A DNA stretch of 64,000 nt from Theocolax elegans (Eukaryota > Arthropoda > Insecta > Hymenoptera > Cerocephalidae), in NCBI GenBank assembly GCA_026168455.1, contig CM047427.1:46478558-46542557 (forward strand). The letters run 5' to 3'. Positions 1 through 59,146 of this stretch are shown here, piece after piece; the first letter of the stretch is position 1, and each line of letters opens with the position of its first letter. Below the pieces are notes generated by a model. It was not told where the DNA came from. It searched no databases and saw only the letters and a list, made by a program, of their open reading frames with translations. Both the position numbers and the translations under genes were made by a program.

Positions 1-229
1 GAAACAAACTGCACTTTACACGAGGGTTTGGCAGTTCTGCCATCCTGTAAATTCACATAAATAAAGCTTTGCCACACGCTGCCTCATTAAGCTCAACGGA
101 GGGTCACCACGCCTATCAATCGTCGAGAGTACGGGAGAAACGATTTAGTCCCTCCGAGCCACGAGACATCTAATCCCATCTCAAACTTACGAACTGCGTA
201 AAGTCCGAAGGATTGACCAGTACGTTACA
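1..229 (+). repeat. 3' end of 5' LTR of copy A
   Basis: Ends in the CA of gttaca just before the primer binding site. It contains a polyadenylation signal aataaa at 60-65, matching 4495-4500 in the 3' LTR. About 2055 bases of this LTR should lie to the left of the window if it is full length. Confidence 0.85.
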
Positions 230-230
230 T

Positions 231-248
231 TGGTGACAGCGGAGGTGG
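231..248 (+). other. Primer binding site of copy A
   Basis: tggtgacagcgg follows the LTR after one spacer base. It begins with TGG (complement of CCA) and looks complementary to the 3' end of a tRNA-Leu-like molecule. Compared with the B/C family it carries two extra bases (ag) before gtgggat. The tRNA identity is inferred. Confidence 0.6.
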
Positions 249-281
249 GATTTTTCGTCTGAAAAAAAAATACAGAAACAA

Positions 282-283
282 GG
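282..283 (+). other. Exon-exon junction: leader joined to env
   Basis: The leader ends acagaaacaag (to 282) and is followed directly by gatgacc. In the unspliced family A leader at 15735 (- strand) the same acagaaacaag is followed by gtaaatg, a good 5' splice site. In copy E, gatgacc is preceded by cctttgtgcag, a good 3' splice site (20342). Copy A therefore shows the exact product of removing a GT-AG intron that spans gag and pol. Confidence 0.9.
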
Positions 284-2245
284 ATGACCACTGCGGCCAC
301 TCTTATTAGGCTACTTATGGCACTGCAGCTGAGCATCATCTCTAACGCCATCACAACGTACGACTGCAAAACAACTCATCCCAATATAACAGTTATTTCA
401 CTGACGAAGGTGGACGACTGTGACATGACTAACCTAAAACCAAAAATCGAAACAAAATATTTACAACTTTTGCAACGGACCGAATTTATGACAACCCAAA
501 CAGAACAATGTCTTGTAAAGGTCGAACAGAGCATCAAGTATTGTGGCATGCACTCACGTGTCTCAGACGTGAAAGGAGGCGAATCGACGTTTATTCTACC
601 GATTTCAAGGGAAGCATGTCACGATTTATTAAAATACGGACAACTAAAATACGGACAGACTCTCTTAGGCAATTTGGTAGCAAATAACACTAATAGGCGA
701 ACCATTACTGTGGCTGGAAATGTCGACCTCGAGGGTAACTGTAAAGGCACGACGTACGTGAGTAACAATTACGAATACTCTGATGTGGTTGTCACCGCCA
801 AATTGGAAATCCGAGCAGACTTAGTGACTGGCACCGTGAACAGGGAACAGGACGTTATCCTATTGCCTTCAGGAACCCGGTGTAGATTCTCTAAAACATT
901 TTGCATCGACGCTGACGAAAAATATGTATTTTGGAACTATATACCCAGAACTTCTTGTAAATTTGACGAGTACGCTATTCTTTACGAAGGACCAGGAATA
1001 AAAATCGACGATCCAGAAGGGAAGTCCCTAACCATGTACTTTAGTAATTCTACCGGAGAGACAGGATTCGGCTTGGCGAGAACGGAGGAGATAGACATTT
1101 GCGGGTATCGACTTATCAAAACCGACCAAACGAAATTGTACATTTTCGAAACGACGCCACACAGATCGTTCACGTCCATACGGAAACTAAACATACCCGA
1201 CGTTTCCCTAGGGTTATATTTTAACAGCAAAATAGGAAACATAGGACGTCACATTGAGATGGAAACTAAATCACTATACATGGAGACGGTAATCAACAAG
1301 TGTAAACTCGAAAAAATGATAATAGAAAACGCCCTAGCGACAGTCTACGACAATCCGGACGATTTCGCGCTCAACATCATGAAAGCACCAGGGTATCTAG
1401 CCATTCCAGCGGGAGAAGCCGCATACATTGTGCATTGCAAAGCCATTACATGCAAAGTGAGACAGACTGACAAATGCTACTACGACATACCGGTTGACTG
1501 TGGAGGACAAGAATTATTTGCCAAACCCAAATCTAGAATACTGACTAAGATAGGATCTTACCGCGATTGTAACGCATTGCTACCGACTTTATTTGAAGTA
1601 GAAGGTCAGTGGTATAAAAGTATAAAAGGAATTCATGAAGTCACACAGCCTCAAATTCTAAAACCAGCAAAGACCTTATCTTGGAAAACTACGGACTTAG
1701 AAAAGATCATGAACGCCGGAATTTATACACAGGACGACATTGACTCGCTACACAAACATTCCATTTTTCCAGCAGAGAAGGGACCTATCCTCGAAAGTAT
1801 AGCTAGGAGATTGAATGATAACACGGCAGGACAACGTTCCATCAATTACAGGAATCTCTTAACACCCGAAGAATTAGAGAACATGACCCAATCTACTCTA
1901 GCGAAATATTGGAATAAATTTCAGAAATTCGGGCAAATATCGGCCGGAATACTGATGATCATATTTCTAATACAAACTATAAAATTACTATTTGATACGT
2001 TCATACGGGGATATGCTATATACAAAGTGTTCGGATGGAGTACACGATTATTTGGAGCGATATTCGGGTCGTTGACTCACCTATTCCTGAACCTGTCAAG
2101 AACAACTCCACGCAGTACGGACGATACTGTAGACACACCAACCAGTCACGATACGGATGGACGACGTGTACGGAAAAATGACTCACTACATGACCTCGAA
2201 CTACGATTACTACGACCAAACGCTACAAACGTTACTCGACGATAA
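284..2245 (+). CDS. env: Envelope glycoprotein of copy A (653 aa, intact)
   Basis: Type I membrane glycoprotein ORF with no breaks. Residues 1-22 form a hydrophobic signal peptide, followed by an ectodomain rich in cysteine and N-glycosylation sites (NITV, NNT, NST). A membrane anchor begins near residue 552 (ISAGILMIIFLIQ) and a tail of about 80 residues follows, containing a second hydrophobic patch near 580-605. Motifs YDC near the N-terminus, YCGMHS, and cysteine-centred blocks are shared with the env of copies B and C. It differs from the env of copy E at only about five residues. The start is the ATG directly after the splice joint. The cysteine pattern resembles chuvirus-type glycoproteins captured by insect LTR elements; this is recognition, not a search. 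In this copy env is the only gene and would be expressed from the 5' LTR without splicing. Confidence 0.85.
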   Translation: MTTAATLIRLLMALQLSIISNAITTYDCKTTHPNITVISLTKVDDCDMTNLKPKIETKYLQLLQRTEFMTTQTEQCLVKVEQSIKYCGMHSRVSDVKGGESTFILPISREACHDLLKYGQLKYGQTLLGNLVANNTNRRTITVAGNVDLEGNCKGTTYVSNNYEYSDVVVTAKLEIRADLVTGTVNREQDVILLPSGTRCRFSKTFCIDADEKYVFWNYIPRTSCKFDEYAILYEGPGIKIDDPEGKSLTMYFSNSTGETGFGLARTEEIDICGYRLIKTDQTKLYIFETTPHRSFTSIRKLNIPDVSLGLYFNSKIGNIGRHIEMETKSLYMETVINKCKLEKMIIENALATVYDNPDDFALNIMKAPGYLAIPAGEAAYIVHCKAITCKVRQTDKCYYDIPVDCGGQELFAKPKSRILTKIGSYRDCNALLPTLFEVEGQWYKSIKGIHEVTQPQILKPAKTLSWKTTDLEKIMNAGIYTQDDIDSLHKHSIFPAEKGPILESIARRLNDNTAGQRSINYRNLLTPEELENMTQSTLAKYWNKFQKFGQISAGILMIIFLIQTIKLLFDTFIRGYAIYKVFGWSTRLFGAIFGSLTHLFLNLSRTTPRSTDDTVDTPTSHDTDGRRVRKNDSLHDLELRLLRPNATNVTRR

Positions 2246-2369
2246 ACTAGACAAAGACTGTACGGGGTAACAAGAAGGAAAATATGAAAAAAAAGAAACA
2301 GAAAAATTTATGGCGAGCCTCGCCTTGGAGAGCAATCGCGACACTCTACGTGTGCCGCGCTTGTTACTT

Positions 2370-2380
2370 AAGGGTGGGGG
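2370..2380 (+). other. Polypurine tract of copy A
   Basis: aagggtggggg lies directly before the LTR start TGTTACG. The same tract precedes the LTR of copy E (18243-18253 on the other strand). It is the expected primer for plus-strand DNA synthesis. Confidence 0.8.
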
Positions 2381-4664
2381 TGTTACGATATGAGGCTCAG
2401 CTCGCAGAATTTGCGACCTTACTATGTTGTTCTTATTGTATAACTAAGAAATATAAACGATCTAACTTAATTGTTAATTACATACTATTGTTATTTTAAG
2501 TACAATATTATTTCAATAAATGTTAAACACTTTTATCTGCGTAGGCGAATAGATGGCAGTATGTAGATCTTAAGCGACTAATATGAAATCGGTCTCAGAT
2601 GCATATCTTGAATGCTGTAGGAGTGGGAGTGACTTGGGTCCACACACCAAACATCGACCTGTCGAGCACTTCTATTCTCAATAACGACCATGGAATATAC
2701 CGCCTAAACCGATATTTATTATTATTTTTATTATTGTATGACTACTCATATATACATATATAAATATCAATTCAAGCACTGTGACGTAACTGTACGCTAC
2801 TATTGGAGTTTACTAGACAACGACGACAGATATCAAAATTTTGATAAGAGCCCCACCCCCCCTAAAATTCATCGTTCTATACGATATGCATATTTGTTCC
2901 CACCTATACCATCCATTGTCACTATAGTTAACACATATTCGTATATACAGTATACTAATGTATGTTCACCCTCGCGGTGGTTGGATAAATGATCAAAATT
3001 CTAGATCGCCCACTACAGAGACGAGCCACGCACGTCCGCAGATGAGGTTGGCCCTGCTACGCAAACGTCCCAACACCAATAATAGTCGATACACCGACCA
3101 TTTCTGGCAGATGAGAGTTCTATCAACGTTGATCGAGTGATACGTAACTAAACGAGGCGGCTGCCGGTAAATGTTACCAGAGGGAGACGATAAGCTGCCG
3201 ACGACCATCAACATGCGACAGTCGGTAGTATATTACCCACCATCGATAAGGAGTGAAACTGTCTTACCGACATACGGCAAATCTTCCCGAAACAATTTCT
3301 CGATCATGAATAGCGTCGACTGGTACCATCTGAAGACTCTTACAACGCAATTGTTTATTTATAATTTTGTTTAAACATATAAAGGGACAAGAACTATATG
3401 AATATTATTGTATTACACGTATTGCACCAATCGCAAGAAAAACCAGCGTTACTTATATACATACTTTTTATACTAATATACGCATGCTTATTATAGATGA
3501 ATGTAATGTTACCATTTAAAATTATTATAAATAAGAAAGGAATATTTCTAATCACAGGAAACATCAGCAAACAACACCGCGAAACACAAAAACGTCTCTA
3601 TTTCGAAATTTAACTTAAGCGATCGACTCGAAATTTCATATACAACAGACTTTTGTAATAAAGATCCTTTTCCCCTCCCGATAATCAATAATATATTAAC
3701 GAATATTGTAAAACCAACGAACATAGAACATTCTAGAAGCATATAGAGTAATTATACGACGTAGAAGCCAACGGAATAAATATCATGTATCCTTATAACA
3801 TCCGGTGTTAGATATCGTCGCCAGTTACGATATTTTCGCGTAGAGTTTAAGTCAGCGTTTTCGCGCTTGACAACAACGGACCAATAAAAAGAGACCAACG
3901 CTTCTAGAACCTTCTATGTATCGTCACGCGCGACCAATCAGACTGAACTATCCCCGCCACGATGCTACTCACGAGCGCAGTGTGCTCGTCGACTCCCGCC
4001 AGTGCTCAGACTGCCTTGATACCAAACGGACGTGCAATCGCGCCACTCCGATAATCTTCGAACAGTCTTCTTCTATTAAGATACAAAGTATATTCTAATT
4101 TATACCGATAGTAAGCGGACGCGTTTTAATTACCGTTCCAGTCAATATTTCATTGTTAGTATCGCTTAATTATACTGATATATATTCGTACGTGCACGAG
4201 CACCCGCGACATAACGCGAAGAGTGTACACTAAAAATAAATAAATAATCGTACCACTTTATCAGGTTAAAGTTGATTATCGAGTTATTTATTTCTTTACT
4301 AATCTTTCCTTATATACGTAGAAGGAACTAAGTATTAATAAAGGTATAACGTCGAGGTAAAGTATATAATTTAAAGGCACGAAAAGTAAATATACGTCGG
4401 ATCATCGAGGAGGACCAGGCTTTCCAATCACGAGAGAAACAAACTGCACTTTACACGAGGGTTTGGCAGTTCTGCCATCCTGTAAATTCACATAAATAAA
4501 GCTTTGCCACACGCTGCCTCATTAAGCTCAACGGAGGGTCACCACGCCTATCAATCGTCGAGAGTACGGGAGAAACGATTTAGTCCCTCCGAGCCACGAG
4601 ACATCTAATCCCATCTCAAACTTACGAACTGCGTAAAGTCCGAAGGATTGACCAGTACGTTACA
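2381..4664 (+). repeat. 3' LTR of copy A, 2284 bp, family A
   Basis: Starts TGTTACGATATG and ends ACGTTACA. The same 2284-bp length is found in the solo LTR at 51853-54136. It is long for a Gypsy LTR. A polyadenylation signal aataaa lies at 4495-4500, about 165 bases from the end. No convincing protein is encoded; short ORFs across it are scattered and not kept in frame between copies. Confidence 0.9.
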
Positions 4665-5521
4665 TTAGGTTGTTCGGTTTTTATCATTTTATAGCCGCAA
4701 ATTGTATGTTCTCCCTCATTGGAGAGAGCAAATTTAACTCCTAAGGTGTCGTTAGCGTAATAAATTTCTGGGGCCTGTATATTATTGTCACTAGCTTTTG
4801 TTACTAAACCTTCATATAAAATTACGTAACGATCAAAGTTACATTCCTGTGAATGTAACATAGTCCAAAAAGTGAAATCTTCCGTGTGATCAATGCAACG
4901 ACCTTCTGTGTATTTACATTTAGTGCCAGATCTGAGCGTAAGCTCGTTTCGATCTTTATTTACGGTAGCCGTAAATGACTGTATAGTGATCTCGAGTTTA
5001 GCTGTGACTACTACATTCTTATAGATTTGTCCGTCCGAGATGTAAACCTTGCCTTCGCAATTGCCATCCGAATCTACGTATCCGGATAAAATTATATTTC
5101 TGCGATTTGTTGCGTTTGCTACTAATTTTTCAACCACGATTTCTCCAAATTTAAATTGTCCGTATTTATGTATATCTTTACAGGCTTCACTCGATACATA
5201 CTGCATATAGGTGGAATCACCACCTTTTACTAAACTACTATGTGAATTCATCCCGCAATGTCGTATTGTTTTTTCGACTTTTACTTTACATTGTTCAACA
5301 AATATTGGCGCATATTCGGTATATTGTAATAATTGTACATATTTTGATTCTAGTGTTGGTGTGAGGTCTTTAAAATCGCATTCACCTACTTTTAACAGAG
5401 ACACAGTCGTGACGTTGGGTGTTGATGAGGTGCCGCAGTTGTAGCCGACGAGTGCCTCGATGTTTGATAGGTGAAGCAGTACGGTGTTGATGATGAGTAG
5501 TGCGGTGACGAGATTCATCAT
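4665..5521 (-). pseudogene. env: env of copy B, first ~285 codons, cut by copy A
   Basis: The first 285 or so residues match the env of copy C almost residue for residue: signal peptide, YNC start of the ectodomain, YCGMNSH motif and the cysteine blocks up to CGYKMIKTEQPN. At 4665 the frame runs into the LTR of copy A and stops after about 14 foreign residues at 4622. The membrane anchor is absent. The start lies just downstream of the pol stop, as in copy C. The break is an insertion. Confidence 0.85.
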
Positions 5522-5539
5522 GAACGTAGTGATCTGCAG

Positions 5540-8500
5540 TTATTCGTCGATGGAGGTTCCTGTAACATGAGAAGAGGAGTGATCAATTTCACTCTGTCTT
5601 CTAAGTCGCGTTAAACGCAATTTGTTCGCATGTACAATACGAGTTTTATTATTCTTATAACTTATTTCTATATTAACGCCATTATCGAAAATTCTTAATA
5701 TTTTATATGGTCCCATATATTCAGGGATAAACGGATTTGTTTTTGGTTCTTGTAAAAGTAGAACCGTATCTCCGACTTTGAACAAACACGGATTTACTTT
5801 CTGATCATAATATTCTTTCGATTTTTCTTTCGAACGAACTAGATTGTCGCGGGCTAATTGTTGTATTTCGCTAAGTTTTTCATGCAATTGGGTAATGTAG
5901 TCTAAATAAGTGCCTTCTAGATGATCTTCGGCTGTGATATTAGCAGATGGTACGCGCGCAATCTTACCGAATATAAGTTCGAATGGTGTAAAGTGAGTTC
6001 CCTCGTGTACGCTCGTGTTATACGCAAAAGTGGCGCATGATAGCCATTCGTCCCACAATCGTTGATTATTTAAATAACATTTTAGATATTGCTTGATTAC
6101 GTGATGCATTCTTTCAATTGAGCCATTAGATTGAGGCCTGTATGCCGTGGTAGTAATGTTTTTAATTTTACAGATTTTCGAAACGTTACGTATTAAACTA
6201 CTTGTAAAATTTTTTCCTTGGTCAGTAAGAATTATTTTTGGAGAACCGAATATGAAAACAAGATTGTGTAATAAAGCTGTAGCAATATCCATAGATGTAG
6301 CATTTTGTAATGCTACCGTTATGATGTATTTTGTTAGTAGACATTGCATTGTCAGTATGTAGGTGTTACCTTTAGGTGTTGTAGGTAAAGGTCCAACGAT
6401 GTCGAGACTGATTTTGTCGAAACTCGATCCTGGAGTGTCAGTGATCACTAGTGGTTGTTTTACTTTCTTGCGCACTAGCTTGTTCAATTGACACACTCGG
6501 CACTTAGATACCACTTCTTGAACTTGTGCTTTCAATCCGGACCAAAAGAAATCTTGGCGAATTCCCTTATAAGTTTTTGCTACGCCTTTGTGTCCGTTGA
6601 TTGGTGAAGTGTGTGTATCGATGATCAATTGTTCTCGTAGGCCGGGATCTGGTATTTTTACTAAGTGTCGACAAATTATAATTTTGACTGGAGTTTCTTT
6701 AAACACGTCTCGTAGAATGTTAAGTATCTGATTGCGTTTCATTTACGTTGGCGGGTTCGTTTGAATCGATATCGCTGTTTACGTTGACTAAACGTTCGTC
6801 ATCTTCGTTACCGATTTTGTTTACTTGGTCATGAGTCGGTGTGGAAATGTTTTTGTTAAACTCTTCGTTATCGGTTAGGTTTGCAGATTGCCGTGTTCGA
6901 TTTCGCGGAGTAAATATTTCGTCAGTATCAGATGTTAATGTAAATACGTTACTCATTTCTTGTGTTGGCGGGTTTCTAGATAACGCGTCGGCTACGACGT
7001 TTGTTTTACCCGGAATATAAACTATTTTATATTCGAATTCTCTGAGCTTAAAATAAAATCTTTTCAATCTTGAAGTTGGTTCTTTAATGTTGTGTAACCA
7101 AATTAAAGGCTTATGATCAGTATAAAAGGTAAATGTACGACCGAAAAGACAATGTCTAAATTGAAAGGCCGCATCAAGCATCGCGAGTAATTCTTTCTAT
7201 ATTACAGCATATCGAGTTTCAGCGCTTTTTAAGAGTCTTGAATAAAATGCTACAGGGAGATCGGAACCGTTTCTTTTTTGGCTAAGAACTGCGCCGATCG
7301 CATATTGCGATGCGTCGGTAGTGACATGAAATTCGAGTGAAAAATCGGGATGTTGGAGAATTGGAGCTTTGCACAACTTTTGAGATAATTGTTTGAAGGC
7401 CTTTTGTTGTTCTTCTTTCCAATTAAAGATACTTTCATTTTTTAGCAAATCAGTAAGCGGTTTGGCGATTTTTGCATAATTAGGTGTAAATTTTCTATAA
7501 TATCCCGTTAGTCCAAGGAACTGCTTAATATTTTTCTTCTCTTTCGGTAAAGGGAAGTTTTCAACAGAATTAATTTTTCTAGGATCAGGTTTTACGCCGT
7601 TTGCTGATATGCTATGACCAAGGTATACGACTTCGGTTCGGTAAAATTGACATTTTTCCGCTTGTAACTTCATGCCTGCGTCGCGTAATCTTTGAACTAC
7701 CACTTCCAATTTTTTATCGTGCTCTTCCAAGGTTTTAGCAAAGATGATGCAATCATCAGCAAATACAAAAATTGAGTTACCTTGTAAGCCTTTGAAGAGA
7801 GCATCCATTAAAGACTGGAAGGTGGCAGGCGCGTTTTTCAGCCCGAAAGGCATTCGTTTGAATTGATAGTGACCATAAGGGGTAGAAAAAGCGGTATATT
7901 TACGATCTTGTTTACGCATATTTATTTGGTGAAATCCCGAAGCGAGATCGAGACAAGAAAAATATTTATTTCCGCCTAGACTATCGAGAATATCATTAAT
8001 ATTTGGTAAAGGATAAGCGTTACTGATTGTTTTTTCATTTATACATCTGTAATCGATGACTAAGCGCCATTTCTTCTCTCCCTGTGGACCATCCTTTTTG
8101 GGAACGATCCACAAGGGGCTAGAATACGCGCTATCTGAAGGCTCTATTATTCCTTATTCGATCAGCTTCGAGATTTGTACATTAACTTCTTCTTTTAAAA
8201 TTTGTGGCAATCGGTATTGTTTAGCTACTACTGGTATATCGTCTATTAAATCAATACGATGTTCGGTCATATTCGTAGCATGGAGTGTGTCTCCCGGTAG
8301 TAAGAAAACATCGTTATATTCTTCGCTTATTTTATTAATCCTTATATTAGTGTCAGAGTCGCATTTTTCGGTTTGTAAAATCTGACGCAGTTTATCAGAT
8401 CGCGTGATGTTCAAAGTGGGAGTTACTACCGCGTTATTCGATGTGTAACTAAATGTATAAATACAGTTCCCCATCATGGGAAGTTCGTGATCCGCGAGTA

Positions 8501-9691
8501 TTAGTTCTGCTTGTGCATCATTGTTTATATGTCCGTCGCTTGTCCAGTATGTTATGTGGGTCTCGTCGTCGTTAATCGCGTCTTCCTCAATGAGGATTTC
8601 ATTTATGTATTTATTGTTATACAGTTCATCGGCTAATAATTTAGTGTAGTCGGTCATTGTTAATGTCTCTGTTTGATCGTCGTCTGCGAATACTGATGGA
8701 TGATTTTGTTGTAAGAATTCGTATTCGGACGGAGAGAATGTAGGGGTATCGTCTATGCTTATTTCGTCATTGTTTAAAGTTCGTGTCGAGTTGGTAGTGT
8801 CAGTATGCGTATGTGTTTTTTCCGCATGTGTTGTTGACTTTTCCCTAGTTTTACTGATTTCGCGAGCCTTTATACTCTTTATTTTAGATATGCCGTGAGT
8901 TTTACTGAAGGTGACTGGGCATTCGCGGGATGGACGTACATCGTCGTCGCATTCGACCGGATTACTTTGCATCTTTTCTTTTGTCTTATCGTTCGCTAGG
9001 TAAACGCAGGATGGGGCATCGCTGGCTCCGCATTCGACTGGATTACTTTCATCTTCCGATATCGTTTGTATTTCGCTTGTGCATATGAGATCGTCATCGT
9101 TAACAATTGTAACTCGCGGTATTCGTATTATTACGTCATAATTATTGTCGTTTGTAACTGGCACTACGACCGAACCGTAAAAATTTGTAGTACGTACGCC
9201 TCCGATCCGTACGCCCTTAGCTATTGTCGTTGTTTTCACGTATCCTATTTTCATGTCTGTTCTAGTTTTTGCTACTATATGTCGTGTGGAAGAAGCGGGC
9301 AAGTTTATGACGATTTGTTCATCAAATGTAATTTGTGTATTTCTCGATTGAATGGTTTCTTTAACAAAATCTATTGTAACGAGGTTTTCGCGGAAAAATC
9401 TGGCTCCTAAAAGTGCAGGGGTGCGCAAGGGAAAGTTGTTTGGCATTACTATAAATTTCGCGTCAGCTTCGAATTTATCTAGTCTTAATGTGACCGATCC
9501 GAGTGATTCTAATGGCGTGTTTGATATTCCCGCTAAAAAGGGTCGATCATCTGCGTTGATTGCTATGTTGCTTTTCAGATATCCTACTTTTATGACATTT
9601 AACTGCGCGCCCGTGTCGATCATAGTTTCTACTTCATTACCGATTATATCCTTGCTAGAAAGAACGATTATAGGAATATCTAATAAACCAT
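5540..9691 (-). pseudogene. pol: pol of copy B: protease, RT, RNase H, integrase, broken
   Basis: Read on the minus strand: aspartic protease with DTGA near 9615; RT with FADD near 7760; RNase H with TDAS near 7310; the tether with its ALSRNPP motif; integrase with zinc-binding HHCC segment, DIVGPLP, TDQGKNFTS and NGSIERMHH; and a C-terminal GPYKIL segment. Breaks: stop codon at 8154-8156 (Gln in copy C), stop codon at 7197-7199 (Glu in copy C), and a deletion of about 427 bases at 6725-6728 relative to copy C, with 3-bp microhomology (tat), which removes the spacer between RNase H and integrase and shifts the frame. Pol lies in the -1 frame relative to gag, as expected for ribosomal frameshifting. 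The protein is not functional as read. Confidence 0.9.
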
Positions 9692-11130
9692 TTACTGCTG
9701 CGAAGTGGACGGTTTTACGTTCAGTGTGTTCATCGGGCGATTGAGGGAGTTTCGTGCGGGATTGCCCGTTTTGCCCGTCTCCCTGTGTCCGTTTCCCGAC
9801 GCGTAAATTTTAGCGCGGCACTCCTTTTCTTCGTGTCCGTTACGTTTACAGTAATTACATACCGTGGTGTCGTATTTCTTCCGTAGGCATTCGCGTTCAA
9901 AGTGACCAGGTTTACCGCAATAATTACAATTATTATGAAAATCTTTACTTTTAAAATAACGCTCGTCGTGTCCGGACGTTTGCAATAATTACAACAGCGA
10001 TCATTACTATTCCTTTGTTTGTTGTCAAAATTGTTTTCTGTGCGCATAATGTGTCTATTTTCCGTTCGTCTGTTATCAAAGTTTCGATGACGCTCGTCTC
10101 GGTTTTCGAATCGCGGAGGGGGTTCTCTGTTACGGTTCTGTCGCGGGCGTTCGTCGTAATTATTGTAAAGTCCGTATTTCTGTCTGTCTATTTCCATTCG
10201 TTTCTCCATTTTTAACGCGTCATCAAAGGCATCATTTAACGTATCATAATAATTTAACAGTCCTATTCTATAAGATGGCGGAAGGCCATAGCGAAATCCT
10301 TCGAGCATTTCGTGTTCAATCTTTCCTAGTTGATGACGATCCAACACCTCGAGTCTATCTTCATGCATTATCGCGTCGATCAAATTAATTTTAATTTCGT
10401 TCACTCTACCGATGAATTGTAGCATGTCTTCGTTGTGCCTTTTTGCCAACGTAGCAATCTGACCGCGATAATGATTCGAGGTATCATTTGTGGAGAACAC
10501 ATTTTTTAATCGCGTAAGCAGTTCGTCAATCGTCGCTAAATTAAAATCTTCCACTGCCGTATATGCATAATCGTGCAGTTTAGTATTTTTTATCAAATTC
10601 GCGACTTCCGCGTGAGTGTTAGGGGTCAATTGATTTTGTACTTTGCGACATGCTTTCACAAACTGAGCTAAGTTATTGCCCGTAAACATAGGGATACTAT
10701 TTAATAATTCGCGCATAATGATGGCGGACGTGGTATTTTCGCGCGGACGGTCTACTACTTTTGTTAACATTTCTGTAAACATCTTCATTAATTCGCTGTC
10801 ATTCTGGTCGGCGGATGGACGGTGTACGTCGTTTTGTTCGGTTTCAAAAGGATTACTTGTACGTTCGTTCTGACTATCATTCATCCCGCTATCTTTACGT
10901 GTTTGCATACCGTTTAGTCTTTCTTGTAATTCCAAATTTCGCCGTCTTTCCTCGGCAATTTTGTTCGCGCACTCTTCGGTCATTTGTTGGTAACGCGCTT
11001 CTAATTCGGCCTTTTGATTTTCGAGTGCAATCTCACTTTGTTTAAGTCTGTTAGCGCGTCGTTCCATCTCTTCCCGAAGTAATTCGAGTTCGCCCGTGTT
11101 TAAATCAGTCATGCTTCGTGTGATTGGCAT
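9692..11130 (-). pseudogene. gag: gag of copy B, one-base frameshift in the zinc knuckles
   Basis: Structural protein of the element. The N-terminal 85 residues are charged and heptad-like (coiled coil), followed by the capsid region, then an Arg/Asn-rich segment and three CCHC knuckles. Compared with the intact gag of copy C, one base is missing near 9974 inside the first knuckle (CNYCKRP then loss of frame). The reading frame changes to another frame and the original continues only in the ORF at 9692-9985. Otherwise the copies are nearly identical. Confidence 0.88.
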
Positions 11131-11372
11131 TATGATGAATGCAAAGAGATTTTATTTTAAGAATCGATTTATTAAATATTTCGAATTTATCACTTCCCGT
11201 TCGACCATTAACACTGGTATATTGCAAAATATCGCGAAAAAATTGTTTTATACTTGAATGATAAATATATTCAATCTTCCATTTACAAAAAAAATGATAT
11301 ATATATATATTCAAAAATATACGTATGTGTTCGTCTATATATATGTATATTATTTATTTTTTTTTTTTTTCG
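11131..11372 (-). other. Leader of copy B between PBS and gag
   Basis: AT-rich untranslated leader containing short TA runs (11295-11350) and a poly-T run. The same sequence with small length changes lies at 57173-57429 in copy C. A splice donor for env is expected here, but none can be chosen with confidence. Confidence 0.6.
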
Positions 11373-11391
11373 TATCCCACCGCTGTCACCA
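11373..11391 (-). other. Primer binding site of copy B
   Basis: On the minus strand it reads tggtgacagcggtgggata, five bases after the LTR end. The match to the 3' end of a tRNA-Leu-like molecule is longer and cleaner than in family A. Confidence 0.7.
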
Positions 11392-11396
11392 AAAAA

Positions 11397-13080
11397 TGTT
11401 GTGTCGATAATTTTACAGATAAAAAAAAAATTAAAGTTATGATTTTACTGATTTTGATTTTGTAAACAGAAGAATGAACTAAATAACTTTACTTAACTTT
11501 TACTGACGAAAACCGTGGTAGAGCGAGGCAGGTCTTAGCAGTTCCTGTGAAGGGTGTATAGGGTGAATTGGTAGGGCAGCAGCTGTCACCAGGAGAAGAT
11601 TTCGGCTTCCTCCAAGCCAAATCCAGGACGACGAAGATGTGTGAGTCGAAACAAGTCCAAAACGACGATGACGGGAAGATTGATTTCGAGAGTGAACGCA
11701 ACAGTTTGTGAAACACGGGATAGTGGATGTAAGTCCGGATAAAGTCAATTACGAGATCACAGATTTATATTTTACACTCAATTTAATTAAAATAGCATAA
11801 TTATATTTCACAGGATTAATAGCTTTTGACAAACAGGTACGAATTTAAAACAACAGTAATTATTGTCCGAACTGAGGTACAAAATTTAAAGTAGTTGAAA
11901 ATACGCGAAGATACAATCTCTTATACATGTGAGAGTAGGAAGACCGACTTATTCGAGTCCGCTCGATCGACTGACTACGACTCTCCTCGACTGACTGTTG
12001 ATGCGCGTCCTCTCTCGAGGTGGTATGAAGGGAACGACTGCTGCGCATCTTGTGGTACGCCGTTCTTGAAGGCGGAGCTGTTCTTGATTGGTTGTGGGCG
12101 GCCCTTCGGTGGTGTACGGATGGGGCTGCGAATCCACTTATTGGTTGGAGGTGGGGCGTTGTCAGCAAACTGATGAGATCTTCGGCGTCTCTTGATTGTT
12201 TTGGCGAATGTTTTGATGACGTACTTATTTAGGTGATTTGGTGTATACTATTGCAATTTTGTGAAGTCATGTTTTTCTCAAACACATTAGTCATTCGAGT
12301 GAGAAGATATTTAAATAGTAATATTAGCGGAGTCGAGAGTCAGTTTCGTAAACACGAGTGTGTTCGTGGAAAGACATTAATTCGTATATGTAACTTAATA
12401 TTAAATAAATGTTATAATAGCAAGTATTAGCGGCATTATACAATTCATAATGCATAAGATTATTATTAATATAACGTATTGTGGCGCGAAACGCATGAAT
12501 CTATTGGGAAAGGATTAGGAGAACATGACATATGAGTAGGTGGCAGAGGTTGCGTGGAGAATTGACGGTGGCGCTAGTCTGGTGGTGCAGAAGGGAACTA
12601 AGGATTTGACTTTGTGCGAGAGAGAAAGGTATAGGTGATGTATGCGATAGTGGCGCTAGTCTGGTGTCGTGGAAAGGAACTAAGGGTTTGACTATGTGCG
12701 AGAGAGAAAGGTATAGGTGATTCATGCGATAGTGGCGCTAGTCTGGTGGCGCGGAAAGGAACTAAGGATTTGACTTTGTGCGAGGGAGAAAGGTATAGGT
12801 GATGCATGCGATAGTGGCGCTAGTCTGGTGTCGTGGAAAGGAACTAAGGATTTGACTATGTGCGAGAGAGAAAGGTATAGGTGATTCATGCGTGTACAAT
12901 ATATGCGTAGACATAACATATGAATATTGTATTTGAATACATTAATAACTAACTGCTAAGTATATATATTGTTATATTTGAATACGATCATTACTAACTT
13001 ACTATTTTATACTTATTTTGGATAAATCGTGGTTATTGTTGACTATTATAAAAGTATAAAAAAAACTGCCCGACATTACA
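11397..13080 (-). repeat. 5' LTR of copy B, 1684 bp
   Basis: On the minus strand it starts TGTAATGTCGGG and ends GACACAACA. It matches both LTRs of copy C (44288-45961, 57454-59142). It contains four 82-bp tandem repeats in its first third. A long antisense ORF found in both LTRs of copy C is broken here by small indels. Confidence 0.88.
12571..12898 (-). repeat. 82-bp tandem repeat, four units, inside LTR
   Basis: The word gcgctagtctgg recurs at 12571, 12653, 12735 and 12817, an exact 82-bp spacing. Each unit carries a gcgagagagaaagg-type GAGA tract (one unit has gcgagggagaaagg). The units alternate in type: 2 and 4 resemble each other, as do 1 and 3. The repeat lies 180-510 bases from the LTR start, where promoter or enhancer sequence is expected. 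Confidence 0.85.
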
Positions 13081-15604
13081 CTCTAGTAATTACTCTAAGC
13101 GTTAATTTTCGCTCCCAGATTCCTATTAGTACCGTCTGGTTATTTCGGCCATTCGAGACTGCTTATTGATATTCCATACTCAGAATATATGAAGCCATCG
13201 ACATTTTAATAAATGGCAGTGCTTGATATACGATAATTTCAATCATTCAGCAGAGTAATAAATACAATTCATCTAGGCACCGAATATGAGAACCTTGCTT
13301 AAAATTAAGTGCTCTCGTACAGTTTGGATTATCCTAGAATTATTTCTCCCATCCCTGCCGGTAACGTTAATGCAAATCAGCCGTTTAGTGGTGTCGAGTT
13401 ATTGCTACTGTATTGTAAGAAACAAACAATCGAGGATAATTTGTTAAACATTAAGGCTAGAAGTTTGGCACTTTCTGTCAAGCAGGCAAGGAGCAAACAG
13501 CATGCATTTAGGCTCCAGAATAGTGAACACTAGTTCCATTTAAGTGTGCTCGATTAATTCTTCTAAGCGTTAAATTTTCTCTCCCAGATTCCTAATAGTA
13601 CCGTCTGGTTATTTCGGCCATTCGAGACTACTTATTGCTATTCCATACCCAGTACATATGAAGCCATCGACAATTTAATAAATAGCAGTGCTAGATATAT
13701 GACAAATTTCAATTACTCAGCAGAGTAATAAGTACTATTCATCTAGGAACTGAATATGAGAAGCTTCGTTAGAATCAAGTGCTCTCGTACAGAGTGGATT
13801 ATCCTTGAAATATTCTCCCATCTCTGCCGGTAACGTTAATGCAATTCAGCCGTTTAGTAGTGTCGAGTTATTGCTACTGTATTGTAAGGAACAAACAATC
13901 AAGGATAATTTATTAAACATTAAAGCTAGAAGTTTGGTACTTTCCGTCAAGCAGGCAAGGAGCAAACAGCATGCATATAGGCTCAAGATTAGTAAAGACG
14001 ACTTCCGTTTATGTGTGCTCGATTAATTCTTCTAAGCGTTAAATTTTCTCTCCCAGATTCCTAATATTACCGTCTGGTTATTTCGGCCATTCGAGACTAC
14101 TTATTGCTATTCCATACCCAGTACATATGAAGCCATCGACAATTTAATAAAGAGCAGTGCTAGATATATGACAAATTTCAATCACTCAGCAGAGTAATAA
14201 GTACTATTCATCTAGGAACTGAATATGAGAAGCTTCGTTAGAATTAAGTGCTCTCGTACAGTTTGGATTATCCTTGAAATATTCTCCCATCCCTGCCGGT
14301 AACGTTAATGCAATTCAGCCGTTTAGTGGTGTCGAGTTATTGCTACTGTATTGTAAGAAACAAACAATCAAGGATAATTTGTTAAACATTAAAGCTAGAA
14401 GTTTGGCACTTTCCTTCAAGCAGGCAAGAAGCAAACAGTATGCATTTAGGCTCAAGATTAGTAAAGACGAGTTCCATTTATGTGTGCTCTAGTAATTACT
14501 CTAAGCGTTAATTTTTCGCTCCCAGATTCCTATTAGTACCGTCTGGTTATTTCGGCCATTCGAGACTGCTTATTGATATACCGTACCCAGAACATATGAA
14601 GCCATCGACAATTTAATAAATGGCAGTCCTTGATATATGACAAATTTCAATCACTCAGCAGAGTAATAAGTACTATTCATCTAGGAACTGAATATGAGAA
14701 GCTTCGTTAGAATCAAGTGCTATCGTACAGGGTGGATTATCCTTGAAATATTCTCCCATCTCTGCCGGTAACGTTAATGCAATTCAGCCGTTTAGTAGTG
14801 TCGAGTTATTGCTACTGTATTGTAAGGAACAAACAATCAAGGATAATTTGTTAAACTTTAAAGCTAGAAGATTGGCACTTTCTGTCAAGCAGGCAAGGTG
14901 CAAACAGCATGCATTTAGGCTCCAGAATAGTGAACACTAGTTCCATTTAAGTGTGCTCGATTAATTCTTCTAAGCGTTAAATTTTCTCTCCCAGATTCCT
15001 AATAGTACCGTCTGGTTATTTCGGCCATTCGAGACTACTTATTGCTATTCCATACCCAGTACATATGAAGCAATCGACATTTTAATAAATAGCAGTGCTT
15101 GATATACGATAAATTCAATCATTCAGCAGAGTAATAAATACAATTCATCTAGGCACCGAATATGAGAAGCTTGGTTAAAATTAAGTGTTCTTGTACAGTT
15201 TGGATTATCCTTGAATTATTTCTCCCTTCCCTGCCGGTAACGTTAATGCAATTCAGCCGTTTAGTGGTGTCGAGTTATTGCTACTGTATTGTAAGAAACA
15301 AACAATCAAGGATAATTTGTTAAACATTAAAGCTAGAAGTTTGGCACTTTCCGTCAAGCAAGCAAGGAGCAAACAGCATGCTTTTAGGCTCAAGATTAGT
15401 AAAGACGAGTTCCGTTTATGTGTACTCGATTAATTCTTCTGAGCGTTAAATTTTCGCTCCCAGATTCCTATTAGTACCGTCTGGTTATTTCGGCCATTCG
15501 AGACTGCTTATTGATATTCCATACTCAGAATATATGAAGCCATCGACATTTTAATAAATGGCAGTGCTTGATATACGATAATTTCAATCATTCAGCAGAG
15601 TAAA
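13081..15604. repeat. 469-bp tandem satellite, about 5.4 units
   Basis: The word ctcccagattcct recurs at 13112, 13581, 14050, 14519, 14988 and 15457, exactly 469 bases apart with no net indel. Units come in two subtypes: units 1, 4 and 6 read gctcccagattcctatt and gactgcttattgat; units 2, 3 and 5 read tctcccagattcctaat and gactacttattgct. Short ORFs of 65-74 codons recur in each unit, but 469 is not a multiple of three and the ORFs have no recognisable product, so they are not called as genes. The left end is the LTR of copy B; the right end is the leader of a family A element. Confidence 0.9.
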
Positions 15605-15766
15605 AAAAATAATAAAAAATAATAATAATAAAATTCATGCAATTTATCAATAAGTATTTGAATACAATCATGCCAAAGTTATATAAATGTTTGTAAGAAA
15701 ATTGCAAAATATGAAATAATGGTAATGCATTTACCTTGTTTCTGTATTTTTTTTCAGACGAAAAAA
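15605..15766 (-). other. Family A leader with 5' part of the env intron
   Basis: Read on the minus strand, downstream of the primer binding site: leader exon, splice donor (15734), then AT-rich intron sequence ending in an (aat)-rich run at the satellite border near 15604. In a full element gag should follow; here the satellite follows instead. Confidence 0.65.
15730..15738 (-). promoter_or_regulatory. 5' splice site of family A leader
   Basis: Minus strand caag/gtaaat, with the intron starting at 15734. The exon side is identical to the bases before the env exon in copy A (272-282), which shows that this donor was used. Confidence 0.85.
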
Positions 15767-15787
15767 ATCCCACCTCCGCTGTCACCA
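15767..15787 (-). other. Primer binding site, family A
   Basis: Minus strand tggtgacagcggaggtggga, one base after the LTR end at 15789. It is identical to the site of copy A, including the two extra bases ag. Confidence 0.7.
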
Positions 15788-15788
15788 A

Positions 15789-16106
15789 TGTAACGTACTG
15801 GTCAATCCTTCGGACTTTACGCAGTTCGTAAGTTTGAGATGGGATTAGATGTCTCGTGGCTCGGAGGGACTAAATCGTTTCTCCCGTACTCTCGATGATT
15901 GATAGGCGTGGTGACCCTCCGTTGAGCTTAATGAGGCAGCGTGTGGCTGTAACGTACTGGTCAATCCTTCGGACTTTACGCAGTTCGTAAGTTTGAGATG
16001 GGATTAGATGTCTCGTGGCTCGGAGGGACTAAATCGTTTCTCCCGTACTCTCGATGATTGATAGGCGTGGTGACCCTCCGTTGAGCTTAATGAGGCAGCG
16101 TGTGGC
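15789..16106 (-). repeat. 159-bp tandem duplication of the LTR end
   Basis: tgtaacgtactggtc starts at 15789 and again at 15948, and the two copies read the same through gcagcgtgtggc. The duplication covers the U5-side end of the LTR. Confidence 0.9.
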
Positions 16107-18378: not shown

Positions 18379-20340
18379 TTATCGTCGAGTAACGTTTGTA
18401 GCGTTTGGTCGTAGTAATCGTAGTTCGAGGTCATGTAGTGAGTCATTTTTCCGTACACGTCGTCCATCCGTATCGTGACTGGTTGGTGTGTCTACAGTAT
18501 CGTCCGTACTGCGTGGAGTTGTTCTTGACAGGTTCAGGAATAGGTGAGTCAACGACCCGAATATCGCTCCAAATAATCGTGTACTCCATCCGAACACTTT
18601 GTATATAGCATATCCCCGTATGAACGTATCAAATAGTAATTTTATAGTTTGTATTAGAAATATGATCATCAGTATTCCGGCCGATATTTGCCCGAATTTC
18701 TGAAATTTATTCCAATATTTCGCTAGAGTAGATTGGGTCATGTTCTCTAATTCTTCGGGTGTTAAGAGATTCCTGTAATTGATGGAACGTTGTCCTGCCG
18801 TGTTATCATTCAATCTTCTAGCTATACTCTCGAGGATAGGTCCCTTCTCTGCTGGAAAAATAGAATGTTTGTGTAGCGAGTCAATGTCATCCTGTGTATA
18901 AATTCCGGCGTTCATGATCTTTTCTAAGTCCGTAGTTTTCCAAGATAAGGTCTTTGCTGGTTTTAGAATTTGAGGCTGTATGACTTCATGAATTCCTTTT
19001 ATACTTTTATACCACTGACCTTCTACTTCAAATAAAGTCGGTAGCAATGCGTTACAATCGCGGTAAGATCCTATCTTAGTCAGTATTCTAGATTTGGGTT
19101 TGGCAAATAATTCTTGTCCTCCACAGTCTACCGGTATATCGTAGTAGCATTTGTCAGTCTGTCTCACTTTGCATGTAATGGCTTTGCAATGCACAATGTA
19201 TGCGGCTTCTCCCGCTGGAATGGCTAGATACCCTGGTGCTTTCCTGATGTTGAGCGCGAAATCGTCCGGATTGTCGTAGACTGTCGCTAGGGCGTTTTCC
19301 ATTATCATTTTTTCGAGTTTACACTTGTTGATTACCGTCTCCATGTATAGTGATTTAGTTTCCATCTCAATGTGACGTCCTATGTTTCCTATTTTGCTGT
19401 TAAAATATAACCCTAGGGAAACGTCGGGTATGTTTAGTTTCCGTATGGACGTGAATGATCTGTGTGGCGTCGTTTCGAAAATGTACAATTTTGTTTGGTC
19501 GGTTTTGATAAGTCGATACCCGCAAATGTCTATCTCTTCCGTTCTCGCCAAGCCGAATCCTGTCTCTCCGGTAGAATTACTAAAGTACATGGTTAGGGAC
19601 TTCCCTTCTGGATCGTCGATTTTTATTCCTGGTCCTTCGTAAAGAATAGCGTACTCGTCAAATTTACAAGAAGTTCTGGGTATATAGTTCCAAAATACAT
19701 ATTTTTCGTCAGCATCGATGCAAAATGTTTTAGAGAATCTACACCGGGTTCCTGAAGGCAATAGGATAACGTCCTGTTCCCTGTTCACGGTGCCAGTCAC
19801 TAAGTCTGCTCGGATTTCCAATTTGGCGGTTACAACCACATCAGAGTATTCGTAATTGTTACTCACGTACGTCGTGCCTTTACAGTTACCCTCGAGGTCG
19901 ACATTTCCAGCCACAGTAATGGTTCGCCTATTAGTGTTATTTGCTACCAAATTGCCTAAGAGAGTTTGTCCGTATTTTAGTTGTCCGTATTTTAATAAAT
20001 CGTGACATGCTTCCCTTGAAATCGGTAGAATAAACGTCGATTCGCCTCCTTTCACGTCTGAGACATGTGAGTGCATGCCACAGTACTTGATGCTCTGTTC
20101 GACCTTTACAAGACATTGTTCTGTTTGGGTTGTCATAAATTCGGTCCGTTGCAAAAGTTGTAAATATTTCGCTTCGATTTTTGGTTTTAGGTTAGTCATG
20201 TCACAGTCGTCCACCTTCGTCAGTGAAATAACTGTTATATTGGGATGAGTTGTTTTGCAGTCGTACGTTGTGATGGCGTTAGAGATGATGCTCAGCTGCA
20301 GTGCCATAAGTAGCCTAATAAGAGTCGCCGCAGTGGTCAT
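18379..20340 (-). CDS. env: Envelope glycoprotein of copy E (653 aa, intact)
   Basis: Same protein as copy A env, differing at about five residues. Signal peptide 1-22, cysteine-rich ectodomain with several N-glycosylation sites, membrane anchor near 552-571 and a basic, Ser/Thr-rich cytoplasmic tail. The frame is open upstream to 20397, adding 19 residues, but those bases are intron: the ATG at 20338-20340 lies one base after a 3' splice site and is the start in the spliced copy A. It lies 81 bases downstream of the pol stop. Expression therefore needs a spliced subgenomic message, as in errantiviruses. Confidence 0.88.
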   Translation of the reverse strand: MTTAATLIRLLMALQLSIISNAITTYDCKTTHPNITVISLTKVDDCDMTNLKPKIEAKYLQLLQRTEFMTTQTEQCLVKVEQSIKYCGMHSHVSDVKGGESTFILPISREACHDLLKYGQLKYGQTLLGNLVANNTNRRTITVAGNVDLEGNCKGTTYVSNNYEYSDVVVTAKLEIRADLVTGTVNREQDVILLPSGTRCRFSKTFCIDADEKYVFWNYIPRTSCKFDEYAILYEGPGIKIDDPEGKSLTMYFSNSTGETGFGLARTEEIDICGYRLIKTDQTKLYIFETTPHRSFTSIRKLNIPDVSLGLYFNSKIGNIGRHIEMETKSLYMETVINKCKLEKMIMENALATVYDNPDDFALNIRKAPGYLAIPAGEAAYIVHCKAITCKVRQTDKCYYDIPVDCGGQELFAKPKSRILTKIGSYRDCNALLPTLFEVEGQWYKSIKGIHEVIQPQILKPAKTLSWKTTDLEKIMNAGIYTQDDIDSLHKHSIFPAEKGPILESIARRLNDNTAGQRSINYRNLLTPEELENMTQSTLAKYWNKFQKFGQISAGILMIIFLIQTIKLLFDTFIRGYAIYKVFGWSTRLFGAIFGSLTHLFLNLSRTTPRSTDDTVDTPTSHDTDGRRVRKNDSLHDLELRLLRPNATNVTRR

Positions 20341-20356
20341 CCTGCACAAAGGAAAT
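20341..20356 (-). promoter_or_regulatory. 3' splice site for env message
   Basis: Minus strand tttcctttgtgcag/g then ATG. A pyrimidine tract and AG are present, and the exon begins at 20341. Its use is confirmed by the joint in copy A at 282/283. Confidence 0.85.
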
Positions 20357-20421
20357 CTAATGTTATTCATATTATAATAAGTGTATATATTAAGCATATA
20401 TATTAATCTTAGAGTTAGTAA

Positions 20422-23400
20422 CTACGTTGTCATATCGGAATCGCGCAATTCAGACTCTGTGTCAAGTCTCGTTTTCCTTAATTTATTTGAATGTACTACG
20501 CGTGTGCCATTTTTATAAGTAATTTTTACATCGTGATTCGGTAGTAATTCTAGAATTTTATGAGGTCCAGAGTGTTGGGGTGAGAATTTATCTTTCCTTG
20601 GCTCCACTAGGAGCATTACCCTGTCACCCACCTTAAAGTTACATGGGTTCAAGCGTCTATCATAGTATCCTTTTGAACGAATCTTTGCATTACGTAAATT
20701 CTCCGCCGCAACCCTCTGGATGTCATTAAGTTTTGATCTTAAATCAACTATATATTCATTATAAGTTCCGATCGTCTGGTCGGTTACAATTGGTTTGTCA
20801 GATGGTACACGCGCGATTTTACCGTAAACGCATTCGAATGGGGTGAGCTTCGTAGCTTCGTGCACACTGGTATTATATGAAAAAGCAGCGCATTCACACC
20901 ACTCATCCCATTCCCTTACGTTGGTTATGTAGTTCTTTAACCATTCCGCAAGCGAATGGTGCATCCGCTCGATCGAACCGTTCGCCTGCGGATAGAAAGC
21001 TGTTGTGGTTATTGTTTTAATTTTACATAATTTGGCTATGTTCTTCATTAGTGCCGAAGTAAAATTCGCGGCCTGATCTGTCAAAATTACCCTTGGCGAA
21101 CCATGTACAAATATAAACCTTTTCAATAGCGCATCGGCGATATCCCTGGAAGTGGCATTCCTTAATGGGGCGAGTATACAAAATTTCGTTAATAAATCCT
21201 GCATGGTGAGGATGTAAATATTGTCTTTCTTGGTTCCGGGCAACGGTCCGACGAGGTCCATGGCTAATTTCTCGAACGCTTCACCCGGAGTGTCAGTTAA
21301 GACCATTGGCTGTCTGACTTTCCTTCTAACCAGCTTGTTTGTTTCACAGATTCTACATTTACTTATTAATTTTTTAATATCTTCTTTCATATTAGGCCAA
21401 TAGTAATTTTGACGGATCCGGTTATAAGTCTTCGTGATACCCTTATGACCGTTCGTGGGAGCACCGTGAATATCTGTTATTATTGAATCCCTTAATTCCG
21501 GGTCCGGTATTTGGGTTTTATTATTGCAAATTATTAATTTTGTAGTATCGTCCGAAAAGTTATTCTTTAAAACGTTCACGATGTCTGTCCACGTAAGATC
21601 ATCGATATTCGAAGTTTTCGATAATCGAACGGATTTCAAATTCATTGATAGGCATACATCACGAACCGACGCGATTGCTTCTTCAAAAATGTCATAATCA
21701 ACCCGAATGTGTAAATTTTCTTTGATAGGAGCGGCTATCAACACCTTACCGTTTCGTTCCGTGGTTTTTGCCCTACCTAGCGTCAAGTGATCGTTTACCG
21801 GTAACTCATCTCGATCTGATAGTTGTTTGGCTCCAGTACAAAGAGGTTGGTTTTTCTGTGTGACGAAATAGATGATATTGTCACGATTTAAAAGAAATGA
21901 ATCTCGCGTTTCTATAATGTTCCTACAAATATATGGTCGGTTTTGTTCTCGCGCATTTACGTCATATTCGACTGCAGGGGGATCTATGATGTCTGTCGTT
22001 TCGTTTTGTGTATTCGTTGTGTCGGATGAATCTGAATGACTTTGAGTCGAGTCTCCAGTAGTCGAGTTGTCAGTGTTTGTATCTCCCGTATCGCAATTTT
22101 TACTAAGCCGTTCTTCTAATGTCGTAATTTCGTCGACCGTTGGTTGTTCATGATCTATAACAGTAGTTAGGGGGTCTTGTTCGTCTGCGTGATCAGTTTG
22201 TTGGGGCGTAGGAATAGTCTTCTGTTTCGAAGATGTTGCTTTGGAATATATCTCCATTGATGAAGACGAGCTCGTACTTAGTCGCGTTTCTCTGTGTGAC
22301 AAGTCGGGTGTGTTATTGTGCGCATCTTCAAATTTCTTTTCAATAATATTCACCTGGTCTAACTCTGGAGGATTCCGGGAAAGAGCATCTGCTACGTAAT
22401 TGGTCTTTCCTGGTTGGTAAATTACCTCAAACTGAAATTTTTCCGTTAATTTAAAATACCAATTTTTGAGACGAGAGGAGGAGTCTTTTATACGATGCAG
22501 CCAGACGAGTGGTTTGTGATCGGTGACAAACATAAATTTCCTACCGATTAGAAAGTATTCGAATTGGTTTGCACAGTACAGCATTGCGAATAGTTCTTTT
22601 TCGATCGTGCTGTATCTTGTTTCCGTATTCGTGAGAGATTTGCTGGCGTAGGCGATCGGAAGGTCAGCTGATTCCTTTTTTTGTGATAAAACTCCACCGA
22701 TCGCATAGTTCGATGCGTCTGTAGTTACATAGAAATTTTTATTAAAATCTGGGTATTGAAGTATGGGTGCTTCTACTAATTTTAGTTTTAAAGTTTCGAA
22801 TGCTTCAGACTGTTCGTTACCCCATACAAATTTACGATCCTTCTTCAACAAATTAGTTAAAGGTTTGGCTAGTTTGGACATGTTGGGAATGAAGTTCCTA
22901 TAATATCCGCAAATTCCCAAGAATTGGCGTATGTTCTTCTGTGTTTTTGGTATCGGGTAGTTGACAATTGCTTTTATATTTTCCGGATTTGGTTCCAATC
23001 CTCTAGCGCTTACGGAATATCCCAAGAATATGACGTTGTCCTTATAAAATTGACACTTGTTTGGATTCAGTTTTAAATTGGCCTCCTTTAGTTTACTAGA
23101 CAATTCCACAAAGACTTGATCTAGTTCATCGAGCGTCTCAGCGAATAGGATTATGTCGTCAATGTAGCCGAGCATACCTTTGACTCTTGTTCTACCTTCC
23201 ATGGTGAGTGGCTTCTGGCCCACAACTTTGTTGGTAAGCTCCTGGAATGTACTCGGAGCAGTAGAGATTCCGAAAGGCATTCGCTTAAAATGATAGTGCC
23301 CAAAAGGAGTAGAGAAGGCCGTTTTCTCGCGATCTTCAGGTCGAATTTCTATTTGATGGAATCCGCTATACATGTCAGCAACGATGAAGTATTTTGCGCC

Positions 23401-25263: not shown

Positions 25264-25824
25264 CCGATAGTAAGCGGACGCGTTTTAATTACCGTTCCAG
25301 TCAATATTTCATTGTTAATATCGCTTAATTATACTGATTTATATTCGTACGTGCACGAGCACCCGCGACATAACGCGAAGAGTGTACATTAAAAATAAAT
25401 AAATAATCGTACCACTTTATCAGGTTAAAGTTGATTATCGAGTTATTTATTTCTTTACTAATCTTTCCTTATATACATAGAAGGAACTAGGTATTAATAA
25501 AAGTATAACGTCGAGGTAAAGTATATAATTTAAAAGCACGGAAAGTAAATATACGTCGGATCATCGAGGAGGACCAGGCTTTCCAATCACGAGAGAAACA
25601 AACTGCATTTTACACGAGGGTTTTGGCACTTCTGCCATCCTGTAAATTCACATAAATAAAGCTTTGCCACACGCTGCCTCATTAAGCTCAACGGAGGGTC
25701 ACCACGCCTATCAATCATCGAGAGTACGAAAAAAACGATTTAGTCCCTCCGAGCCACGAGACATCTAATCCCATCTCAAACTTACGAACTGCGTAAAGTC
25801 CGAAGGATTGACCAGTACGTTACA
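25264..25824 (+). repeat. Family A LTR fragment, inverted relative to copy E
   Basis: Matches 4105-4664 on the same strand, from ccgatagtaagcgg to ccagtacgttaca. It covers the 3' quarter of the LTR. It joins the gag remnant on its left and a LINE remnant on its right. Copy E is on the other strand, so this is not its own 5' LTR in place. Confidence 0.9.
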
Positions 25825-57429: not shown

Positions 57430-57448
57430 TATCCCACCGCTGTCACCA
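57430..57448 (-). other. Primer binding site of copy C
   Basis: Minus strand tggtgacagcggtgggata, five bases after the LTR, identical to copy B. Confidence 0.7.
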
Positions 57449-57453
57449 AAAAA

Positions 57454-59142: not shown

Positions 59143-59146
59143 CTAC

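Follow-up and report, generated by a model that had tools for sequence, protein, structure and literature searches.

A solitary envelope gene (env) in the genome of the hymenopteran Theocolax elegans, flanked by long terminal repeats (LTRs), very probably arose when a spliced subgenomic env mRNA of a Ty3/gypsy-type endogenous retrovirus with a chuvirus-type envelope was copied into DNA and integrated. This unit, copy A, stands at the beginning of a 64,000-nucleotide stretch, the window, which corresponds to C3:46478558-46542557 of a 658-Mb assembly in 1277 contigs, and spans 6,718 bp from LTR to LTR in genome coordinates. From the joint between leader and env in copy A, its LTRs and target duplications, and the presence of the same joint in copies that form no single clade, we conclude that spliced env RNA entered the genome by reverse transcription and integration on more than one occasion.

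Structure of copy A

An earlier note, made from the letters of the window, had described copy A as an LTR, primer site, leader, env, polypurine tract and LTR in this order with neither gag nor pol, and its coordinates hold:

1..229, + strand: 3' part of the 5' LTR inside the window (from the sequence)
Left of the window, from G000:C3:46476504: remaining 2,054 bases of the 5' LTR, preceded by TTAG (from the fetched flank)
230..250, + strand: primer-binding site region, abutting the LTR end (from the sequence)
230..282, + strand: 5' leader, to the splice donor
282..283, + strand: splice joint of leader and env, without intron
284..2245, + strand: env, 653 amino acids, chuvirus-type fusion glycoprotein (PF24664), open
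2246..2380, + strand: 3' untranslated stretch with the polypurine tract at its end
2381..4664, + strand: 3' LTR, complete, 2284 bp
4665..4668, + strand: right target duplication TTAG, within the env of an element of a second family, family B

The 653 codons said to be open were found as one open reading frame (ORF) at 284-2245, and the single ATG in window positions 1-290 is the start of env itself at 284. Copy A is an LTR-driven env unit that does not need splicing.

The splice joint

At 282/283 the leader end AAACAAG is fused to the env-side sequence GATGACC. A family A leader elsewhere in the window reads AAACAAG/GTAAAT, with its first intron base at 15734 on the minus strand, and the unspliced copy E reads TTTGTGCAG/GATGACC, with its last intron base at 20342 on the same strand, so that the leader of copy A does join env exactly where the ends of a GT-AG intron meet, as had been proposed. 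The elements concerned are:

15734..15788, - strand: primer site and donor-bearing leader of family A (intron starts at 15734)
20341..20357, - strand: splice acceptor in copy E, where the intron ends at 20342
18379..20340, - strand: env in copy E (unspliced), taken to begin with the ATG past the acceptor

The joint sequence occurs once in the window at up to three mismatches, and the donor lies in the leader, 51-54 nt past the LTR end. Scored with an approximate splice matrix, the donor value was reached at 72 and the acceptor value at 10 of 127,948 positions; another donor-like site in the leader (15773) scores slightly higher than 15734 and is not the one used. Twelve acceptor-like sites on the two window strands score at least 10.5, and three of them, belonging to copy E and both family B copies, lie no more than 40 nt before an env start. 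An in-frame ATG further upstream in copy E lies in the intron, and splicing would remove it.

Flanks and target duplication

The 229 bases of the 5' LTR inside the window are identical to the 3' LTR, as had been stated for the visible ends, and the whole 5' LTR (2283 bp) differs from its 2284-bp partner by one mismatch and one gap. Outside the window, the left flank (stretch L009) reads GAATAGATTAG followed by TGTTACG. Family B, the second Ty3/gypsy-type element of the window (44288-59143 and 4665-13081), has a PF24664 env 40% identical to that of copy A; GAATAGATTAG is family B env sequence and matches an uninterrupted family B copy. The TTAG to the right of copy A also sits in family B env, and the uninterrupted copy has TTAG once. 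Because the left flank reads as the family B env sequence predicts, TTAG flanks copy A on both sides. Both the rest of the 5' LTR and the duplication of the proposed target ttag, on whose presence the earlier note had staked its reading, are therefore in place.

4665..13081, - strand: family B element B2, host of the copy A insertion in its env
47182..47185, + strand: empty site of copy A, TTAG in uninterrupted family B env (B3)

The unspliced copy L029 (C3:46471147-46476100), the nearest unspliced relative of copy A, sits in the same family B env in the same orientation, 471 bp to the left of copy A (the gap being L009 1034-1504). A solo family A LTR at 51853-54136, inside family B copy 3, has the 4-bp duplication ATGG, and its empty site is present in family B copy 2.

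Proposed mechanism

We propose that a full element would be transcribed from its LTR and that one intron of about 7.1 kb, running from the leader donor just past the primer site to the acceptor before env, would be removed to give env mRNA. As the spliced mRNA keeps R, U5, the primer site, the polypurine tract, U3 and R, the element's reverse transcriptase could copy it and rebuild both LTRs, and the element's integrase would then insert the cDNA with a 4-bp target duplication. In retroviruses generally, the two strand transfers of reverse transcription restore an LTR at each end, and the resulting DNA is inserted by integrase. We infer that the copying took place in trans, by a full element. 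The suggestion that the spliced message was reverse transcribed, with both LTRs regenerated, and inserted is backed by the joint, the LTR pairs and the duplications.

Other copies in the genome

A joint-spanning query of the genome gave 167 candidate places, 40 of which were scored and all 40 of these examined, either fetched or in the window. A genome search for further env-only copies with this joint had been suggested, and joints scattered as in ordinary deletions had been named as the contrary outcome: seven of the 40 scored env copies carry the spliced joint, copy A and six more, while 33, including copy E, keep the acceptor and intron sequence, and no different leader-env joint was found among the 40.

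Copies A, C4 and C5 are single and complete. C4 and C5 lie on contigs other than that of copy A; C4 has the target duplication CAAG and an LTR pair with 0 mismatches of 2297, and C5 has ACTG and a pair with 9 mismatches of 2285 and 3 gaps. All three complete single env-only copies (A with TTAG, C4 with CAAG, C5 with ACTG) are thus bounded by 4-bp duplications. C324 consists of two env-only units in tandem with a common LTR, the third LTR being cut short; C551 lies in another tandem array, and its many short indels look like read errors; C2 is interrupted. Tandem env-only units with common LTRs were seen at L010 936-10000 and L015 1-7432.

For 8 of the 33 unspliced copies the stretch at the expected leader position was fetched. 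Primer site, leader and the donor ACAAG/GTAAATGC were present in seven of these eight, with an intron of 6,694-7,181 nt, a figure that is the leader-to-env distance, taken from a reading of its two ends.

One origin or several

The full copy nearest to copy A is L029 (0.20% in env, 0.04% in untranslated region (UTR) plus LTR), with L017 equally near in UTR+LTR. Nearest full copies in env and in LTR are L030 and L040 for C4, L025 and L018 for C5, L041 and L037 for C2, and L020-L022 and L043 for C551; C324 is nearest to L020-L022 in env. Trees were built from env (36 of the 40 rows, each with more than 1,400 env bases; bootstrap not fully settled), from UTR+LTR (30 of the 40, each with more than 1,800 bases) and from the 430 bp beside the joint on the leader side (14 rows, the 7 env-only copies and the 7 full copies with leaders). 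They need five, six and five changes of state, respectively, and a single clade of env-only copies is rejected in each (p 2.8e-91, 3.3e-6 and 1.5e-4). Well-supported branches alone force four changes in the env tree and four in the UTR+LTR tree, and label shuffles gave as low a number in 237/500 cases for the LTR tree and 330/500 for the leader tree. Repeated formation, with some exchange between copies, is the best reading of these sequence comparisons.

Several points weigh against the main interpretation. The counts of 7 and 33 are no census, because 40 of 167 places were scored and the query favours joint-bearing copies. The eighth sampled copy is L029, the nearest to copy A, and the stretch 5' to it matches nothing in the window or at the other loci and holds no leader, so L029 may be incomplete. 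The copies look mosaic: for C4, C5, C2 and C551, env and LTR point to different full copies as the nearest. No branch of the leader tree is strongly supported, and its supported branches force one change only; env-only copies show a slight grouping in the env tree (27/500 shuffles as low). Lastly, we infer packaging in particles from DNA structure.

Alternative explanations

Some of these points would also be expected if a single ancestral env-only provirus had spread non-autonomously and had later traded parts of env and LTR with full copies through template switching or gene conversion: the mosaic affinities of several copies, the slight clustering in the env tree and the nearness, weakly supported, of C324 and C551 to each other all fit, and so do the tandem env-only arrays, whose existence means that secondary change does happen. 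However, all three data sets (env, UTR+LTR and the joint-linked 430 bp) reject one clade, and in the last of these C2 has one variant that only L037 shares and another that both L037 and L041 share, in agreement with its placement by env and LTR. We regard a single founder as improbable.

Lower still we rate the possibility that homologous recombination put a spliced cDNA in place of the interior of a full provirus already resident there, while the old LTRs and duplications stayed. The same map would be expected and the copies do look mosaic, but the LTR pairs of copy A, with its one mismatch and one gap, and of C4, with none, fit fresh insertions, and reverse transcription of spliced RNA would be required here too.

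An ordinary deletion between leader and env, genomic or during reverse transcription, might have ended at the splice sites by chance, and the 3-nt microhomology between the two ends is like that of many deletions. The stretches tested (1,598 nt from the primer site by 499 nt up to env) allow 542,208 different junctions, 10,723 of them with at least 3 shared bases; the observed joint, which shares 3, is one among these 10,723 and yet fits donor and acceptor. It moreover recurs in copies outside any one clade, with no other joint in the 40 scored, and this recurrence at one joint in practice refutes a deletion, to which we give next to no credence.

Equally negligible is the copying of env mRNA as a processed pseudogene by machinery of the long interspersed nuclear element (LINE) type, for which an RVT_1 reverse transcriptase ORF, LINE-like by appearance, is at hand in the window (27053-28258): the structure refutes it, with complete LTR ends, no poly(A) tail, 4-bp duplications at 3/3 complete single copies, and LTR sequence that continues for 169 bases beyond the last AATAAA of the 3' LTR of copy A (4495) to the exact LTR end. 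Reverse transcription of the LTR type yields sequence beyond the poly(A) signal, which a LINE copy would not if that AATAAA was used.

The envelope protein and host use

The env of copy A matches PF24664 alone in Pfam (viral fusion glycoprotein family, E 3.5e-173), and its relatives include the glycoprotein of Soybean thrips chu-like virus 3 and proteins of Habropoda and Odontomachus; judged from its sequence, it is of the chuvirus kind. Its predicted structure is of low-to-middling confidence (mean predicted local distance difference test (pLDDT) 66, predicted template modelling score (pTM) 0.37). The model is best matched by chuvirus-type glycoproteins among viral models and by herpesvirus glycoprotein B (gB) among solved structures, both of them class III fusion proteins, at template modelling scores (TM-scores) that are low (0.53 and 0.35, respectively, for the first match). 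A phmmer search found no PDB chain at E up to 1, and an env-pattern scan of viral_contigs found nothing. Copy A retains all 14 cysteine columns that 90% or more of 21 aligned sequences have in common. Copies A and E differ at five amino acids; 17 of 19 relatives side with E at one of these positions and 18 of 19 with A at another.

The earlier note had also seen in the env-only copy a plausible first step to host use of env, and here the data did not follow it. Env is intact in 4/7 env-only copies and open in 15/33 unspliced ones, and between copy A and L029 there are 0 synonymous and 4 non-synonymous changes in env, too few to decide on selection. Pooled over six env-only copies and their nearest full copies (C324b, identical to C324a, being left out), the changes are 18 synonymous and 30 non-synonymous, compared to 72 and 66, with one stop, for 13 nearest-neighbour pairs of unspliced copies. 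The suggested comparison of the non-synonymous to synonymous rate ratio (dN/dS) in env-only and full copies thus gave, from few changes, no sign of purifying selection. The low dN/dS of 0.095 between A and the more distant E (15 synonymous, 5 non-synonymous) was rejected as a sign of host use, since it stems from the history that active copies have in common. Nothing in the data supports host use of env, and the intact env of copy A is explained by youth.

Comparison with known systems

In murine leukaemia virus (MLV), a spliced retroviral RNA enters particles, is reverse transcribed and becomes a provirus, giving a product that needs no splicing (splice-donor-associated retroelement, SDARE; PMC2925334, PMC10496198). 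The likeness lies in a spliced-RNA provirus whose product does not require splicing; SDARE differs in its alternative donor, SD', and in being described for MLV in cultured or infected cells, whereas here a leader-to-env joint is found several times in a genome assembly and belongs to a Ty3/gypsy element. The SD' donor of MLV lies in gag. The donor here lies in the leader, and copy A is hence not an SDARE proper, although a joint at the donor and acceptor of the parent, near-identical complete LTRs (A, C4 and C5) and 4-bp duplications were all found. The route by which spliced RNA is re-inserted is known from MLV SDARE, and what we describe is a recurrent germline variant of it in a Ty3/gypsy element with a chuvirus-type env.

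Human LINE-1 SpIREs are likewise spliced element RNA re-integrated, followed genome-wide with splice-joint probes (PMC5860796), but they arise in the manner of LINEs, through target-primed reverse transcription and with poly(A), in contrast to the LTR mechanism and rebuilt LTRs here. Bovid LTR-env-LTR elements, 82 of them in cattle, resemble copy A as LTR-flanked env without gag or pol; they differ in that the count comes from automatic annotation, and, as no word starting with 'splic' occurs in the main text, the list appears to involve no analysis of a joint (PMC3879100). The mosquito element Anakin also has LTRs and a chuvirus-type glycoprotein (PMC7642597) but is BEL-Pao, unlike the Ty3/gypsy-type pol domains found here; no BEL-type family is among the Pfam matches of pol, and membership was rejected. 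Insect errantiviruses, or insect endogenous retroviruses (iERVs), such as ZAM, are Ty3/gypsy-type and make env from a spliced message (PMC12992720); their env is env-F, whereas the present one matches PF24664 alone, and this assignment was rejected as well. According to a review, spliced RNA may make up as much as 10% of what is packaged in human immunodeficiency virus type 1 (HIV-1) and Rous sarcoma virus (RSV) (PMC5086612). We found no description of recurrent env-only germline proviruses at a splice joint in insects in the open-access literature consulted, which is weak evidence of novelty.

Within one genome, and from several separate origins, spliced env messages can return to the chromosomes as clean LTR units, so that besides the decay of gag and pol there is a direct way for stand-alone env genes to form. 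As a corollary, the RNA can be copied and inserted without any sequence of the 7-kb intron. That spliced env RNA gives env-only proviruses as a regular product of the element family, so as to form a standing set of LTR-driven env units beside the full copies, is a tentative extension that we consider rather unlikely. If it were true, env-only units could act in trans as a source of envelope or could interfere with envelope, their intron-less RNA could be packaged again, and gag-pol and env copies would show a division of labour, with ready intron-free env genes for host uptake.

Pol, family B and other elements in the window

20422..25020, - strand: pol ORF of copy E, with reverse transcriptase, RNase H and integrase in Ty3/gypsy order (Pfam)

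The presence of these three domains in this order identifies copy E as Ty3/gypsy, and the named relatives ranking near the top for pol come from ants and bees. Family B has an LTR with 82-bp tandem repeats, and a strong acceptor stands before its env as well; donor-like sites in its leader score below the family A donor or fall in the primer region. Its copy 3 has a GTAG duplication, RNase H and integrase, and an env between its two LTRs. A chuvirus-type envelope occurs, then, on Ty3/gypsy-type elements, with two families in the window, and a protein of Anthophora retusa (P0132) combines pol domains with PF24664. One survey reports no clear Gypsy capture of such a glycoprotein (PMC10084718). 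ARAGORN found no tRNA within the window.

The last 159 bp of the 3' LTR of copy E are tandemly duplicated (100% identical) with primer site and leader directly after (15789-16106), perhaps the trace of a tandem provirus. A satellite-like array (469-bp unit, 5.4 times; 13087-15603) lies between a family B LTR and the family A leader fragment, the pol region of family B copy 3 has a tandem duplication of about 815 bp (99.4% identical; 49313-50956), and a truncated family A LTR in opposite orientation (25264-25824) cuts copy E upstream of pol.

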